From Methanomassiliicoccus sp. (GTDB lineage Archaea; Thermoplasmatota; Thermoplasmata; Methanomassiliicoccales; Methanomassiliicoccaceae), in contig JAAYAX010000003.1 in assembly GCA_012719175.1 (NCBI GenBank), positions 1 through 47,676 of the forward strand: DNA of 47,676 bases, given 5' to 3'. The notes beneath the pieces were generated by a model, which worked only from the letters and a program-made list of their open reading frames with translations, was not told the DNA's origin and made no database searches. Below are positions 31,360 to 37,297 of this stretch, piece after piece. Position 1 is the first letter of the stretch; each line of letters begins with the position of its first letter. A program made the position numbers and the translations under genes.

Positions 31360-32199
31360 TTGACCAGCATAACATTCTTGGGGACGGGTGGTGGAAGGTT
31401 CGCCACCATATACCAGATCCGGGCCACGGGGGGCATATACTTGAACGATGGTCCCCGGATCCATCTGGACCCCGGCCCTTCCGCCCTGATGGGGATGCGG
31501 AAGCTTGCGTTGGATCCCGCAAAGACAGATGCGGTCCTCATTTCACATTGCCATCCCGACCATTACGCGGACGCAGAGATGCTCATCGAGGGGATGACCA
31601 AAGGGGGCTTCAAACGTTCTGGGACTCTTGTAGGCAGCATCAGTGCGATCAAGGGGGCCGATGGATTCAGCCAGGCCGTGTCTGAGTACCACCAGTCCAT
31701 AGTGGAAAGAGTGGAAACGGTGGAGGCCGGGTCCTCCTTCACCGTGAAAGGGATGAAGGTGGATGCCACGAGGACGTCCCACAACGATCCTGCTGGAGTG
31801 GGTTTCAAGTTCCATACCTCATCGGGGGTCATCTCGTACGTCGGGGACACCGAGTACGCGGACTACCTCCAGGCTGAGCATGCAGGGTGTAGGGTGCTGG
31901 TCCTGAACCTTACCCGGCCCCTCAACTCCAGGGTGCCTAAGCATCTATGCACCGAGGACGCCGCCCAGCTGGCCACGGAGATCTCGCCGGAGGTGGTCAT
32001 CCTGACCCACTTCGGGATGCGGTTGGTGCATGAGGGAGTAAAGAAGCAAGCGGAGCACATCGAGAAGGCCTCGGGGGCACGCACCATAGCTGCCGAGGAC
32101 CTCATGACCGTTCAGATCGGTAAGACTATTCGCTCTACCCGCTCGCGGGGGTGGGAGATCATCGGGGACGGCAAGGGGCCTGTGCACCTTGACGCATGA
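31360..32199 (+). CDS. Metallo-beta-lactamase-fold hydrolase
   Basis: A 279-residue MBL-fold protein resembling the RNase Z/small-hydrolase group. The metal motif is SHCHPDHYAD (His63, His65, Asp67, His68). Later ligands lie in ATRTSHNDP, YVGDTEYAD and ILTHFGMRL. The start GTGGGRFATIYQIRATGG matches archaeal members of unknown substrate. It starts with TTG, which is decided by GGTGGGG a few bases upstream and by the conserved N-terminus. A nuclease or phosphodiesterase role is possible. The long exosite of RNase Z is not evident. Confidence 0.8.
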   Translation: MTSITFLGTGGGRFATIYQIRATGGIYLNDGPRIHLDPGPSALMGMRKLALDPAKTDAVLISHCHPDHYADAEMLIEGMTKGGFKRSGTLVGSISAIKGADGFSQAVSEYHQSIVERVETVEAGSSFTVKGMKVDATRTSHNDPAGVGFKFHTSSGVISYVGDTEYADYLQAEHAGCRVLVLNLTRPLNSRVPKHLCTEDAAQLATEISPEVVILTHFGMRLVHEGVKKQAEHIEKASGARTIAAEDLMTVQIGKTIRSTRSRGWEIIGDGKGPVHLDA

Positions 32200-32295: not shown

Positions 32296-32895
32296 ATGAT
32301 GATAATCTGCCAAATAGTGGGCTTTTTAGGTAGTGGAAAGACCACACTACTAGTTCAATTAGGTTCAGAGCTGGGCAAGGAAGGTAAAAAGGTCGCCATC
32401 ATTGTAAACGAGATCGGGGAGATTGGGGTCGATGGAGCGGTCATCGATTCCTTCGGGTTCCAGAGCGTGGAGCTCACCGAGGGATGCATCTGCTGCACCT
32501 TGGCAGGAAGCCTTCAGAACACCTTGAAGATATTAAGCAAGGAGTATCAGCCCGACCTTATCATAATAGAGCCCACAGGAATAGCCCTACCCAACATCAT
32601 CAAGAAAATGGTTCGCATCGCTATGGTGGGAGAGGATGCGATGTACACCATCGGGATCGTGGACGCTTTCAGGGCAGAGAAGCTGTTCAAGCAGGCTGAG
32701 ACCTTCTGCAGGACCCAGATCGATGGGTCGGACATCGTGGCCATCAACAAGATCGACCTGGTCGACGATGGGCTCCGCGACAAGGTAAGTGAGATGGTGA
32801 GAGATATCACTCCCAAATCAAAGATCGTTTTCATCTCGGCAAAACAGGCCAAGGGGCTGGAGAGCCTGTTGGAGCTACTGAGGGAAGCACCATGA
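32296..32895 (+). CDS. Short CobW/HypB/UreG-type GTPase (metallochaperone-like)
   Basis: A 199-residue G3E-family P-loop GTPase. GFLGSGKT at 9-16 is the Walker A loop. NEIGEIGVDG and the metal-binding CICC at 64-67 (TEGCICCTLAGSL) are CobW/COG0523 hallmarks. IIIEPTG is the Walker B region and NKIDLV the guanine-specificity motif. The usual CobW C-terminal domain is missing. Such GTPases deliver metals (Zn, Co or Ni) to client enzymes. It has no Shine-Dalgarno and a TATA near 32280, so a leaderless start at the first or second Met is likely. Its stop overlaps the histidine-rich gene as ATGA, and the activase follows. Confidence 0.85.
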   Translation: MMIICQIVGFLGSGKTTLLVQLGSELGKEGKKVAIIVNEIGEIGVDGAVIDSFGFQSVELTEGCICCTLAGSLQNTLKILSKEYQPDLIIIEPTGIALPNIIKKMVRIAMVGEDAMYTIGIVDAFRAEKLFKQAETFCRTQIDGSDIVAINKIDLVDDGLRDKVSEMVRDITPKSKIVFISAKQAKGLESLLELLREAP

Positions 32896-33329
32896 GCGAA
32901 GATACCAAGAAGATGGCCGACACCGGGGCCCATGGTATGAAGCTGACCTTTCACGCTCATCCGCCCATCCCTTCCGACGAGTTCGTCTCCCTCATGGAGG
33001 GCCTGTTGGTCTCTGTCGGAGATAAGGTCAATGAGATGGGGAAGGTCCTGATAGGACATGCCAAGACGTTCATCACCACGCCCTTCGGTACCCTGAAGGT
33101 AAACCTCATCGATACTGACCTCGGAGCAGAGACGCTGAACAGACTGTCCTCGCCCGCAGTGGAAGAAGGTGAGATGAAGTTCATGTGTGTGCTCATGGGG
33201 CTGTCAGACCATGAGGTTGAGGAGATCATGGAAGAGAGCCTTGAGGGCTTGAACGACCGCATGGAGATCGAGGTAGAGGAGCACGAGCATCAGCACGAGC
33301 ATCAGCACGAGCACGAGCATCAGCAATGA
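32892..33329 (+). CDS. Unknown protein with histidine-rich C-terminal tail
   Basis: A 145-residue protein. The N-terminal 125 residues form a compact soluble domain of unknown family, with FHAHPP near residue 20 and a helical end (HEVEEIMEESLEGLNDRMEI). The last 18 residues are almost only Glu, His and Gln, with seven His, a form typical of metal-storage or metal-handover tails in HypB, UreE and CobW proteins. Here the tail sits on a separate protein whose start overlaps the GTPase stop by four bases, so the pair should be made together. GAGGTGAT after it serves the downstream activase. Binding of Zn, Co or Ni is inferred. Confidence 0.75.
   Translation: MSEDTKKMADTGAHGMKLTFHAHPPIPSDEFVSLMEGLLVSVGDKVNEMGKVLIGHAKTFITTPFGTLKVNLIDTDLGAETLNRLSSPAVEEGEMKFMCVLMGLSDHEVEEIMEESLEGLNDRMEIEVEEHEHQHEHQHEHEHQQ
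33282..33323 (+). repeat. 12-base tandem repeats encoding the His-rich tail
   Basis: CACGAGCATCAG occurs three times, with one extra CACGAG before the last copy, just before the stop codon. Each copy encodes His-Glu-His-Gln. Near-identity at the nucleotide level indicates recent expansion by slippage, so tail length may differ between strains. Confidence 0.8.
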
Positions 33330-33338
33330 GGTGATCAA

Positions 33339-34973
33339 ATGGAGAAATACGGACTAGCCATAGATGTGGGAACGAGCGGTACAAGAATGCATGCGGTGGA
33401 CCTGGACTCGAAGAAGATCATCTCCACAGCAATAACCATGCGCCATCCTGTTCCAGGTGCGAACGTCATGGATCACCTGACTTTCTGCATCGAGGTGGAC
33501 AGAGGACTGGCCCACAGATTGCTGATCGACACCTCCAACAGGCTCATGAAGCTGCTGGACATCGATCTCAAAAAAGTGGAGAGGGTGGCCATCTGTGGTA
33601 ACCCTATCCAGCTCTCGATATACCAGGACATGGAGGTACGTGACCTGGCCTTCGCCATGCCTAATGCGCTTAAGAGCCGAGGGGTCGAGCTACAGAAGAG
33701 GGATGCGACGGTCCTCAACGCTGCGGATATCGGGCTGGAGCTGTCTGACAATGTCGAGCTATATGTGCCCCCCGCCATCCGCCACGAGATCGGTGCGGAC
33801 GCTCTGGCCATGATGTATAAGACCAACCTGTTGGACCGGAAGGAGAACGTCCTGGTCACCGACTATGGTACCAATGCCGAGATGGCCCTCAAGGTCGGTG
33901 ATGAGATCTACACCGGCTCGGCCGCGGCCGGTCCGGCCATCGAGGGACAGTCCATAAAGGCTGGTATGCTGGCAGCTCCGGGAGCCATCAGCGACGTGGA
34001 TGCGTTCATGGACTGGAAGTGCATCGTTCTCGACGATGCCATCCTGGCTCAGGAGGGTGACACGGTCAACCCCAACACCGGAACGGTGGTCACGGAGAGC
34101 GCCATGCACGGGAAGGCGACCGGTATCACCGGTACCGGTGTCATCGCGGCCATCGCAGAGGGTCTGAGCAACGGCCTGATAAAGATGCCTCACATCAACA
34201 CCGTCGATGGCAGGCTCCACCTTCAGGATGGGGTTATACTCACCGAGCACGATATTGTCGAGGCCTCCAAGACCTTCGGTGCCATGAGGGCCGGTCACTT
34301 CACCTTGCTGGAGCACGCGGGGCTCAAGTTCGAGGAACTGGACATCATGTACATGAGCGGGGCGTCTGGTACGTACGTGGACGCCCACAAGGCGCAGAGG
34401 GTAGGACTGCTACCTCCGTCCTGCGGTCAGATCTTCCAGTACGGGAACACCTCTCTGGCCCTGGCCCTGGACCTGGTCCGGGACCCCGGACTGTTGGACA
34501 ACCTGCAGTCGCTGGCCAACTCCATACGTGCCAACCACGTCATGTTCGCCACCGACAAGGTGTTCGAGACCGTGTTCATTCAGGAGCTGGCATATTGGAC
34601 CGAGGGAATGCCTATGGAGATGTACAACATGATGCTGGGCCTCCAGGACATCCAGCCCCTGCCGGAGAAGATCAAGGATGCCCAGGTCACTCGTACCGTG
34701 CTCAGGGACATACCCGATCTAGGTTACAAGGGACTGAGGGTCCTCAGGGACATAGGCATCTTCATGGAGGGATCGTTCGAGGGTTGCATCGGTTGCAGCA
34801 AGTGCGTCGATGATTGCCCCGAGAACGCCATCACCATGACCCCCATGGGCGATACGTATAACATGAGGATCGCCTCCGACCTATGCAACGGAACCGCCTG
34901 CTTGCGCTGCGAGAGGGTCTGCCCCGAGAAGGTCTTCAAAGTGAAGGAGCTGCAGAAGAACATTTTAAAATAA
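33339..34973 (+). CDS. RamA-family corrinoid-protein reductive activase
   Basis: A 544-residue iron-sulfur protein that reduces inactive Co(II) corrinoid proteins to active Co(I) with ATP, as RamA does for methylamine systems. The start GLAIDVGTSGTRMHAVDLDS is an ASKHA-type nucleotide-binding opening. The C-terminus has two ferredoxin-like clusters: Cys483, 486, 489, 493 and Cys516, 521, 524, 528. The second has an unusual C-x4-C first spacing. Length matches RamA (about 540). It is nine bases after the histidine-tailed gene, with GAGGTGATC as ribosome site, and convergent with mtaCB, so MtaC is the probable client. The name RamM would fit that role but cannot be proven. Confidence 0.88.
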   Translation: MEKYGLAIDVGTSGTRMHAVDLDSKKIISTAITMRHPVPGANVMDHLTFCIEVDRGLAHRLLIDTSNRLMKLLDIDLKKVERVAICGNPIQLSIYQDMEVRDLAFAMPNALKSRGVELQKRDATVLNAADIGLELSDNVELYVPPAIRHEIGADALAMMYKTNLLDRKENVLVTDYGTNAEMALKVGDEIYTGSAAAGPAIEGQSIKAGMLAAPGAISDVDAFMDWKCIVLDDAILAQEGDTVNPNTGTVVTESAMHGKATGITGTGVIAAIAEGLSNGLIKMPHINTVDGRLHLQDGVILTEHDIVEASKTFGAMRAGHFTLLEHAGLKFEELDIMYMSGASGTYVDAHKAQRVGLLPPSCGQIFQYGNTSLALALDLVRDPGLLDNLQSLANSIRANHVMFATDKVFETVFIQELAYWTEGMPMEMYNMMLGLQDIQPLPEKIKDAQVTRTVLRDIPDLGYKGLRVLRDIGIFMEGSFEGCIGCSKCVDDCPENAITMTPMGDTYNMRIASDLCNGTACLRCERVCPEKVFKVKELQKNILK

Positions 34974-34975
34974 AA

Positions 34976-35002
34976 ATAGGAGAGGGGTCAGCCCTCCCCT
35001 AT
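34976..35002 (+). terminator. Hairpin terminator after the activase gene
   Basis: ATAGGAGAGGG and CCCTCCCCTAT pair at ten of eleven positions around loop GTCAG, directly after the stop codon. T-rich sequence follows (TTTCCTTCTTTC). It lies between convergent transcription units, so it should end the CobW-RamA operon and may also serve mtaCB. Confidence 0.65.
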
Positions 35003-35096
35003 ACTTTCCTTCTTTCTGATCTACCGTTCTGTTTCTGAATTAGTGGGGCATGGGACCGGCCTATGCTTTGATGGGGTCCGCTCCATCTCGACCTGC

Positions 35097-36500
35097 TTAC
35101 ATCTCATAGTTCTTTGGATTGAATAGGGGGACGTCCTTGTAGGCCTTGAGGCACATCTCCTGGAAGAGACCTTCCTCATCAGGTAGGGCTGACAGGTCGG
35201 TGATGATGCGACGAAGCATGTCCTGCTCGTGCTTGGATAATCTCAGCTTACCTGCCTTGTTCTCCTCCTCGATTAGCCTGGCCGCGGTCATGCCTGCAGC
35301 CTTGGAGCGGAGGTAGATATCGTTTCCATATTCCACTATGGCCTGACCGATCTTGTAGGCATTATCATAGGCCAGGATGAAAGCCTCCGGACTGCGGTAC
35401 CGGTCCGTGGCCATGTACAGGTCACGGAGGAGCCGGTCCTGCTTCAGCTGCTTGGCCATGTTCATAAGGGCGGCCTCATATCCTATGGAGCCTAGCCAGC
35501 ACTGAACGGACGATCCGCCGAACTCGGGGTGGTATTCCACGGACTCGTTGGACCACAGGTCGCACACCTGAGCTATGAGATTTCCCATGAGGTCAGCGTG
35601 GGCGCACTGGCAGTTCTTACCCTCCTGGGCCGTGGGTTTACCAGCGATGGCCTTGACGATGGGGCCCTCGTATCCGCAGTCCTTATCGGGGCCGGTAGCC
35701 CCGCACTCCCACGCCACCAGGGTCTTGGCGGAGGCGATGGCTCTGGTGACCGCGGCGAAGGTGCGGGGGATGTCCCGGTCGAGGTAACCGCCAGCCATGA
35801 ACATAGAGGTGTTCGCGCCTGCGCAATTGGTGTCCCCACCGGCACGGACCTTGTTCTTCTTGGCGATGTCGACGATCTGGGGCCATATCCACGCCATGTC
35901 GATGGAGCCGAGGTAGCCGATGCCGAACAACCACCCACGGATGTCCTGGCGCAGGATAGCGTAGTCGGCGACCTCCTTGCCCCCCGTGGACTCGATGGAG
36001 AGCAGATCCGCCCCGTTCTCGGCCGCGACCTCGATCGATTCCACACACTTCTCTGGATAACTGTGCTTCTTGTCCATGTCGATGCGCAGACCCTCCTCCG
36101 CTAGTCGGGGGTCGGCAACTGTATGGCGGATGGATAGAGCGATTCCATACTCATCATGGTAGTTCTGCATCATCTCCTTCTGGCCTGCGACCACCGGCTT
36201 CTCGTACCTCTGAGGCTCGTTGACCATCTGGAAGATGTGCTCGTTCTCCAGCTGCACCGTGGGGAAGCCCAGGGTGATCGCCCTGTCCAGTATGTCCTTG
36301 GTTATGTAGTCGACGTACTCCCTCCTGAGGGACTCAGGACTCTTCTCCGCGCCCGGCCGGGGGGCAAAGTTGATCTCCGGGACCACGACACCCGCTCCCA
36401 CTGTCTGCCCCAGACCATAGGAGACGGGATACCTGGCCTCACCAAACACCATCTCGTCCGGGGATCCGTACTCCATCCTCGTGTATCTCTTGATAGCCAT
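35097..36500 (-). CDS. mtaB: Methanol:corrinoid methyltransferase MtaB
   Basis: A 467-residue zinc enzyme that activates methanol and transfers its methyl group to the corrinoid of MtaC, the first step of methanol-dependent methanogenesis. Zinc ligands of the Methanosarcina barkeri protein (Glu164, Cys220, Cys269) correspond exactly, at a constant shift of six, to Glu170 (LSIESTGGKE), Cys226 (DTNCAGANT) and Cys275 (DKDCGYEGP). Length fits the family. It follows mtaC by 11 bases with GGAGGCATCAAA before its ATG, so the two are cotranscribed and made in equal amounts. The partner MtaA that passes the methyl group to coenzyme M is not in the window. Confidence 0.97.
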   Translation of the reverse strand: MAIKRYTRMEYGSPDEMVFGEARYPVSYGLGQTVGAGVVVPEINFAPRPGAEKSPESLRREYVDYITKDILDRAITLGFPTVQLENEHIFQMVNEPQRYEKPVVAGQKEMMQNYHDEYGIALSIRHTVADPRLAEEGLRIDMDKKHSYPEKCVESIEVAAENGADLLSIESTGGKEVADYAILRQDIRGWLFGIGYLGSIDMAWIWPQIVDIAKKNKVRAGGDTNCAGANTSMFMAGGYLDRDIPRTFAAVTRAIASAKTLVAWECGATGPDKDCGYEGPIVKAIAGKPTAQEGKNCQCAHADLMGNLIAQVCDLWSNESVEYHPEFGGSSVQCWLGSIGYEAALMNMAKQLKQDRLLRDLYMATDRYRSPEAFILAYDNAYKIGQAIVEYGNDIYLRSKAAGMTAARLIEEENKAGKLRLSKHEQDMLRRIITDLSALPDEEGLFQEMCLKAYKDVPLFNPKNYEM

Positions 36501-36511
36501 TTTGATGCCTC

Positions 36512-37297
36512 CTACTCCTTAGCTGCCGTAAGTTTATCCCAGTTCTCCCGGAGACGCCTCCAGTCGTAACCCTCCATGGTCTTATTGGCCAGGGCCGGAC
36601 CCTGTATGGCCTTGGCCGCGAACACCCCCATGGGATAGGACTCCACGAACGCACGGTTCACCGCCCCGCCCGCGCATATGAAGGGGATGTTGATCCCCCG
36701 CTCCCGAAGCTTTTCGGAGATCTTGGGGAACGCGGACATGGTGGTGGTCATGAGCGCGGTGCCGGTCAATATCGCCGGCTTTTCGTTCTCCACGGTGGTT
36801 ATGACGTCCTGTATGGATACATCCCTCCCCATGTCCACGACAGTGTAGCCGTTGGACTTCAGGAGCACGGCAGCTATGTTCTTGCCGATGTCGTGGGGGT
36901 CTCCTTCGGCCACGTGCATAACCACCTTGCCTCGTGTCTCGCGTGCCCCCTGCATCTGGGACTCGCACAGCTTCACCCCTTTGTCCATGACCTCGGCGGC
37001 CACCATCACGTGCGGAAGGTAGTAGATGCCCCTTCCATATAGCTCACCCACTATGTCCATACCCTTGATGAGGCCTTGCTCGATCACCTCCTCTGGACTA
37101 TAGTTCTTCAGGGCCGAGGCCACATTCTCCGTGATGTTCTTAGAGCGCATGAAAACGACATCCTCGACCACCTTTCGGAGGTAGGGGTCCTTAGGCACCA
37201 TTCTCGCCGCCAGCTCCTCAGGTGACTCCTTGGACTCCATCTGGATATCGTATCTTCTTAGAACACGGTCAAAGTTCACACTCTTAAGATCTAACAT
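36512..37297 (-). CDS. mtaC: Methanol corrinoid protein MtaC
   Basis: A 261-residue carrier of the corrinoid that accepts methyl groups from MtaB. A helical cap domain (about 40-115, with KGMDIVGELYGRGIYYLPHV) precedes the Rossmann-type cobalamin-binding domain. The axial ligand is His135 in DPHDIGKN. GTALMTTTM and FICAGGAVN contact the nucleotide tail. AAGGAGGT seven bases before the ATG is one of the strongest ribosome sites in the window, consistent with high expression. Oxidised MtaC must be reactivated, and the RamA-like gene opposite is the natural candidate. A 13-bp palindrome lies upstream. Confidence 0.97.
   Translation of the reverse strand: MLDLKSVNFDRVLRRYDIQMESKESPEELAARMVPKDPYLRKVVEDVVFMRSKNITENVASALKNYSPEEVIEQGLIKGMDIVGELYGRGIYYLPHVMVAAEVMDKGVKLCESQMQGARETRGKVVMHVAEGDPHDIGKNIAAVLLKSNGYTVVDMGRDVSIQDVITTVENEKPAILTGTALMTTTMSAFPKISEKLRERGINIPFICAGGAVNRAFVESYPMGVFAAKAIQGPALANKTMEGYDWRRLRENWDKLTAAKE

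Follow-up and report, generated by a model that had tools for sequence, protein, structure and literature searches.

Gene content and layout of the locus

The window, meaning the whole stretch of DNA that was analysed, comprises 47,676 nucleotides of Methanomassiliicoccus sp. (assembly GCA_012719175.1, contig JAAYAX010000003.1). The following features were located in it:

31360..32199, + strand: RNase Z-like metallo-beta-lactamase (MBL) gene, a conserved upstream neighbour in relatives
32296..32895, + strand: CobW-type GTPase gene (199 aa; PF02492)
32485..32496, + strand: CxCC metal-binding motif of the GTPase (GCICC, C64-C67; from the translation)
32892..33329, + strand: partner gene (145 aa), equivalent to the C-terminal-domain half of a fused Methanosarcina protein
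33054..33065, + strand: invariant G-H-x-K motif of the partner (G55-H56-A57-K58; from 76 partner domains)
33282..33326, + strand: His-rich C-terminal tail of the partner, HEHQHEHQHEHEHQQ (from the translation)
33339..34973, + strand: RamA-type corrinoid reductive activase gene (544 aa; TIGR04270)
35097..36500, - strand: mtaB, zinc methanol:corrinoid methyltransferase (NF040651)
36512..37297, - strand: mtaC, cognate corrinoid protein (PF02607/PF02310)

The GTPase and partner reading frames share 4 bases (ATGA), 9 bases separate the partner stop from the RamA start, and this unit on the plus strand is convergent with mtaC-mtaB on the minus strand. The same layout had been given by a sequence-only reading of the window and was correct base for base. 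The GTPase, partner, and RamA genes are presumed to form a cotranscribed operon, and the MBL gene probably lies outside the system.

The RamA protein matched TIGR04270 with 736 bits (cut-off, 500) and has both a RACo-type ASKHA domain and the C-terminal 4Fe-4S domain (2x[4Fe-4S]) by which RamA is recognized. MtaB matched NF040651 with 744 bits (cut-off, 720), and its positions E164, C220, and C269 (2i2x numbering), which we take to be the zinc ligands, were invariant in the alignment. MtaB and MtaA are established zinc enzymes (Sauer and Thauer 1997, as cited in Haas 2009, PMC2770081). The best model for MtaC, NF040669, fell short of its cut-off (294 versus 450 bits), and the protein was identified via its B12-binding domains PF02607/PF02310.

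The GTPase and its partner protein

The window GTPase is a single-domain protein of the COG0523/G3E type. It matched the cobW model PF02492 with 139.6 bits, and its translation contains the Walker A sequence GFLGSGKT and NKID. The cobW nucleotide-binding domain with Walker A and NKxD and the CxCC motif, two marks of COG0523, were thus both found. GCxCC was present in 101 of 108 related GTPases, and the best solved relative was YjiA (1nij; E = 1.5e-17). As is usual for COG0523, the pair is predicted to bind and transfer metal in a GTP-dependent manner. An in-frame TGA in some related GTPases was considered as a possible selenocysteine codon and rejected, the TGA being a terminal stop that had been read through.

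No family match was obtained for the partner in searches of Pfam (even at an E value of 10), NCBIfam, PADLOC, and PDB sequences. Its sole invariant residues are G55, H56, and K58, which were conserved in all 76 partner domains. The His tail is optional in the family, with at least two HxH motifs in 41 of the 76. The AlphaFold2 model of the partner was confident (pLDDT, 88.7), and in a fold search of 350,542 PDB chains YjiA chains took the first three places, although their TM scores were low (E values between 1.6e-3 and 3.3e-3). YjiA was also the nearest solved structure for the fused protein (365 aligned columns; E = 2.7e-13). The CobW_C domain (PF07683), a further mark of COG0523, was not found in the partner, where the likeness to the YjiA fold was borderline (E = 1.6e-3), and was absent among the matches listed for 37 fused members (0/37). 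The predicted partner fold thus appears to resemble CobW_C, at a borderline level. The partner is called CobW_C-like in fold only, because the profile comparison with CobW_C was not significant (hhalign E = 0.35); homology to CobW_C is not claimed.

Conservation of the unit and its fused form

The survey covered 61 draft genomes (the window's genome and 60 relatives), whose assignment to Methanomassiliicoccales and Methanomethylophilaceae is presumptive. The closest GTPases in the 60 relatives were followed by the partner, which in most cases overlapped them by 4 bases; ramA came next, and the gene order MBL-GTPase-partner-RamA was found again in many genera. The proposal from the sequence, a single unit with a metal-delivery GTPase tied to the methanol methyltransferase, is supported, and the unit is conserved. 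In the 61 genomes, 49 of 133 RamA genes have such a GTPase within 1.5 kb (chance expectation, about 1). The pair did not lie mostly away from ramA and mta genes in relatives, an arrangement that the sequence-only reading had named as speaking against it. In a second family (presumably Methanomethylophilaceae), mtaC-mtaB again adjoins the unit, there in divergent orientation.

A scan seeded with MtaB yielded 77 Methanosarcinales loci. In Methanosarcinaceae, the GTPase and partner are fused in a single polypeptide: both HMMs matched one chain, the partner HMM at its C-terminal half (E = 1e-7 to 1e-21). Some of the fused proteins are His-tailed. The fused genes often follow ramA immediately and precede mtaC-mtaB. 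In the tree, split and fused forms clustered together, separate from bacterial COG0523 proteins. No bacterial loci were found in an MtaB search of plasmids.

Pairs of other subfamilies were observed as well. The second subfamily (L038-L045, L136-L138) lies in a conserved cluster with a corrinoid protein, a URO-D-type methyltransferase, a Cys-rich 107-aa protein that matched no family, and an ASKHA protein resembling HyuA; the clusters of genus g6 additionally hold an MtaA and a divergent RamA. A pair of a third subfamily, with a His tail, occurs in the window's own genome, G000 (L006:9281-10347, G000 contig C13). Its neighbour is a DNA topoisomerase gene, and it lies apart from all methyltransferase genes; L048 has a like neighbourhood, and so does L049, there together with an AcsV/RACo-like protein. 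At L054:7347-8821 and L052:7667-8979, a paralogous pair adjoins an ABC transporter (NMT1-like binding protein, permease, and ATPase), and the partner tails are very rich in His and Cys, with CCC and HHH runs in L054.

Relation to described systems

The pair belongs to COG0523 subfamily 13, of which it represents the two-gene form; it was matched to the published Methanosarcina loci by gene context rather than by accession number. That subfamily clusters with mtaA/mtaB/mtaC and ramM in Methanosarcina, as described in Haas 2009 (PMC2770081). The sequence-only reading, which knew of no described system with this composition, was wrong on this point. The published subfamily has the GTPase family and the CxCC motif in common with the window and, like the window pair, lies near mtaB/mtaC and a ramA-type gene in methanogens; it differs in being a single fused chain in Methanosarcinaceae, whereas the window has two genes with a 4-base overlap. 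No mention of the C-terminal domain or the GHxK motif was found in the available portions of the paper, and a search of the accessible literature found no published description of the two-gene form.

The COG0523 metallochaperones YjiA, ZigA, CobW, and ZNG1 share with the pair a GCxCC G domain, a C-terminal alpha/beta domain, and a His-rich stretch. PF07683 occurs in most, though not all, COG0523 members; classical members carry it, but the window partner had no match to it. HypB-HypA and UreG-UreE, which deliver nickel, likewise combine a small single-domain G3E GTPase with a separate metal-binding partner. Unlike HypB and UreG, however, the window GTPase is CobW-like, with CxCC, and only weakly HypB/UreG-like, and unlike HypA and UreE the partner matched no known partner family in sequence and fold searches. 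MeaB, the chaperone of B12 mutases, is also a G3E GTPase serving a corrinoid enzyme; it lacks the CxCC motif, and the window pair is tied to the zinc subunit instead of the corrinoid protein.

Co-occurrence of the pair with MtaB

Where RamA lies within 8 kb of MtaB in the 61 genomes, the GTPase was found within 1.5 kb of RamA in 35 of 37 cases and within 8 kb in the remaining two. In contrast, none of the 27 RamA genes within 8 kb of the pyrrolysine methylamine methyltransferases MtmB and MttB had it (Fisher P = 5e-16, phylogeny being ignored), and no GTPase was located within 15 kb of MtmB (0/67) or MttB (0/36). The same contrast was seen in 16 Methanosarcinales genomes (9/10 on the MtaB side versus 0/7 on the methylamine side).

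The window GTPase subfamily, taken as the proteins scoring 161 bits or more against the window GTPase, was present in all 41 MtaB-bearing genomes and absent from 17 of the 20 MtaB-free genomes. Among the exceptions, G044 and G050 are fragmented drafts in which the pair lies at the end of a contig, while the GTPase copy of G051 is located away from RamA and MtaB. A truncated GTPase in G034 may be a fourth exception. Within genera g6, g20, and g22, genomes vary jointly in MtaB and the GTPase subfamily. RamA genes were present in all 61 genomes.

No nearby pair was found at 20 of 63 MtaB genes, including the second copy of the window's genome (C5:59932); for such genes the pair would act in trans. 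Other pairs adjoin methyltransferases of the MtaA or URO-D type; the H-x-C...C zinc signature was present in 20 of these 21 enzymes. At L141:9694-14969 (G000 contig C5), the neighbours of RamA are a URO-D methyltransferase and a HyuA-like protein, and the GTPase pair is missing, which speaks against a strict link between URO-D enzymes and the pair. The MttB-family genes of G000 that have an in-frame TAG (pyrrolysine) codon (C14:5293-6717, C15:83509-84936, and C15:87559-88470) are on other contigs than its MtmB and RamA genes, and one of them also has an internal TAA.

Proposed role and alternatives

The pair may load zinc into MtaB, a reading with a probability of about 0.56 in which both metal and client are deduced from sequence comparison. 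Zinc delivery is favoured because the pair keeps company with MtaB and is missing where RamA belongs to a pyrrolysine methylamine system. Both kinds of system use corrinoid proteins and RamA, and MtaB stands apart by its zinc site; the H-x-C...C signature of the methyltransferases beside other pairs points the same way. Zinc to MtaB is therefore the most economical reading. The Methanosarcina homologue MA4382 has been recorded in methanol-grown cells, as cited in Haas 2009 (PMC2770081).

In the proposed mechanism, the pair would be a COG0523 (G3E) metallochaperone made as two polypeptides. The GTPase would bear the CxCC metal site, and the partner would be the usual C-terminal domain, with GHxK and a metal-collecting His tail. 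On binding GTP, the GTPase-partner complex would hold Zn(II); docking on apo-MtaB and hydrolysis of GTP would release the zinc into the Glu/Cys/Cys site of MtaB, a GTP-driven step that we infer. RamA would reactivate MtaC after oxidation of its cobalt, and the unit would give the methanol methyltransferase two upkeep functions. A more specific reading, proposed tentatively and at somewhat less than even odds, takes MtaB as the only client: the pair would then be an insertase devoted to zinc and made of two proteins, in which a COG0523 chaperone is split and its GHxK partner domain is of a kind not described before. Methylamine systems also require CoM methyltransferases, which are zinc enzymes, and the lack of an adjacent pair at MtmB/MttB loci counts against zinc delivery to MtaB. 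So do the MtaB genes without a nearby pair and a Methanolobus copy beside CbiX cobaltochelatase genes, and the co-occurrence with MtaB may reflect linkage, linked genes being gained and lost jointly. MeTr is, to our knowledge, not a zinc enzyme. A COG0523 gene beside a MeTr homologue in Desulfitobacterium, reported in Haas 2009 (PMC2770081), is a further point against.

A wider supply of zinc to all zinc methyltransferases (MtaB, MtaA, and URO-D types), or a response to zinc limitation, would account for the paralogous pairs beside URO-D/MtaA enzymes with H-x-C...C and for the isolated copies of the pair. It is unlikely, as the window subfamily and MtaB co-occur nearly one to one and the methylamine loci, despite their use of a zinc CoM methyltransferase, have no adjacent pair. 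The pair could also be a general metal homeostasis system whose link to mta and ram genes is merely genetic. The paralogous pair beside the topoisomerase gene (L006:9281-10347) and the paralogues by ABC transporters (L052, L054) favour such hitchhiking; the linkage persists, however, in two orders, in split and fused forms, and in varied gene orientations, and we regard hitchhiking as quite improbable.

The sequence-only reading had left the metal open between zinc for MtaB and cobalt or iron handling for MtaC or the activase. The zinc part is favoured. The cobalt or iron part was not supported, as RamA and corrinoid proteins of the MtmC type function in other settings that lack the pair. Cobalt or iron-sulfur handling is less likely than zinc delivery. 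CobW, the founding family member, is a Co(II) chaperone, and a CobW- or MeaB-like role in delivering cobalt to, or loading corrinoid into, MtaC agrees with the corrinoid protein near most methyltransferase-linked copies. It also agrees with a Methanolobus locus (L172:8873-13244) at which two tandem fused GTPases lie close to two CbiX cobaltochelatase genes; from these neighbours, some paralogues may handle cobalt. Such a role is improbable for the window pair: the corrinoid proteins of pyrrolysine systems need a like cofactor, yet their clusters are without the pair (MtmB, 0/67; MttB, 0/36), and CobW acts in the late cobalt-insertion pathway, the early one requiring no such chaperone (PMC10206600). 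Maturation of RamA (iron-sulfur assembly), or regulation of its ATP-driven reactivation, would fit the position of the pair immediately 5' of ramA, which is kept across the order, and that of the fused GTPase directly 3' of ramA in several Methanosarcinaceae. It is very improbable, as 84 of 133 RamA genes, including all those beside MtmB/MttB, have no GTPase within 1.5 kb, and RamA occurs in 61/61 genomes while the GTPase subfamily is almost confined to those bearing MtaB.

Significance

The clients of most COG0523 metallochaperones are unassigned; here, comparison of loci names MtaB as the likely client and zinc as the likely metal. The GTPase and metal-collecting halves are encoded by two genes and are therefore separable for deletion and purification. 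It is predicted that heterologous production of the methanol methyltransferase in active form may require the pair in addition to RamA, which bears on the engineering of methanol use.
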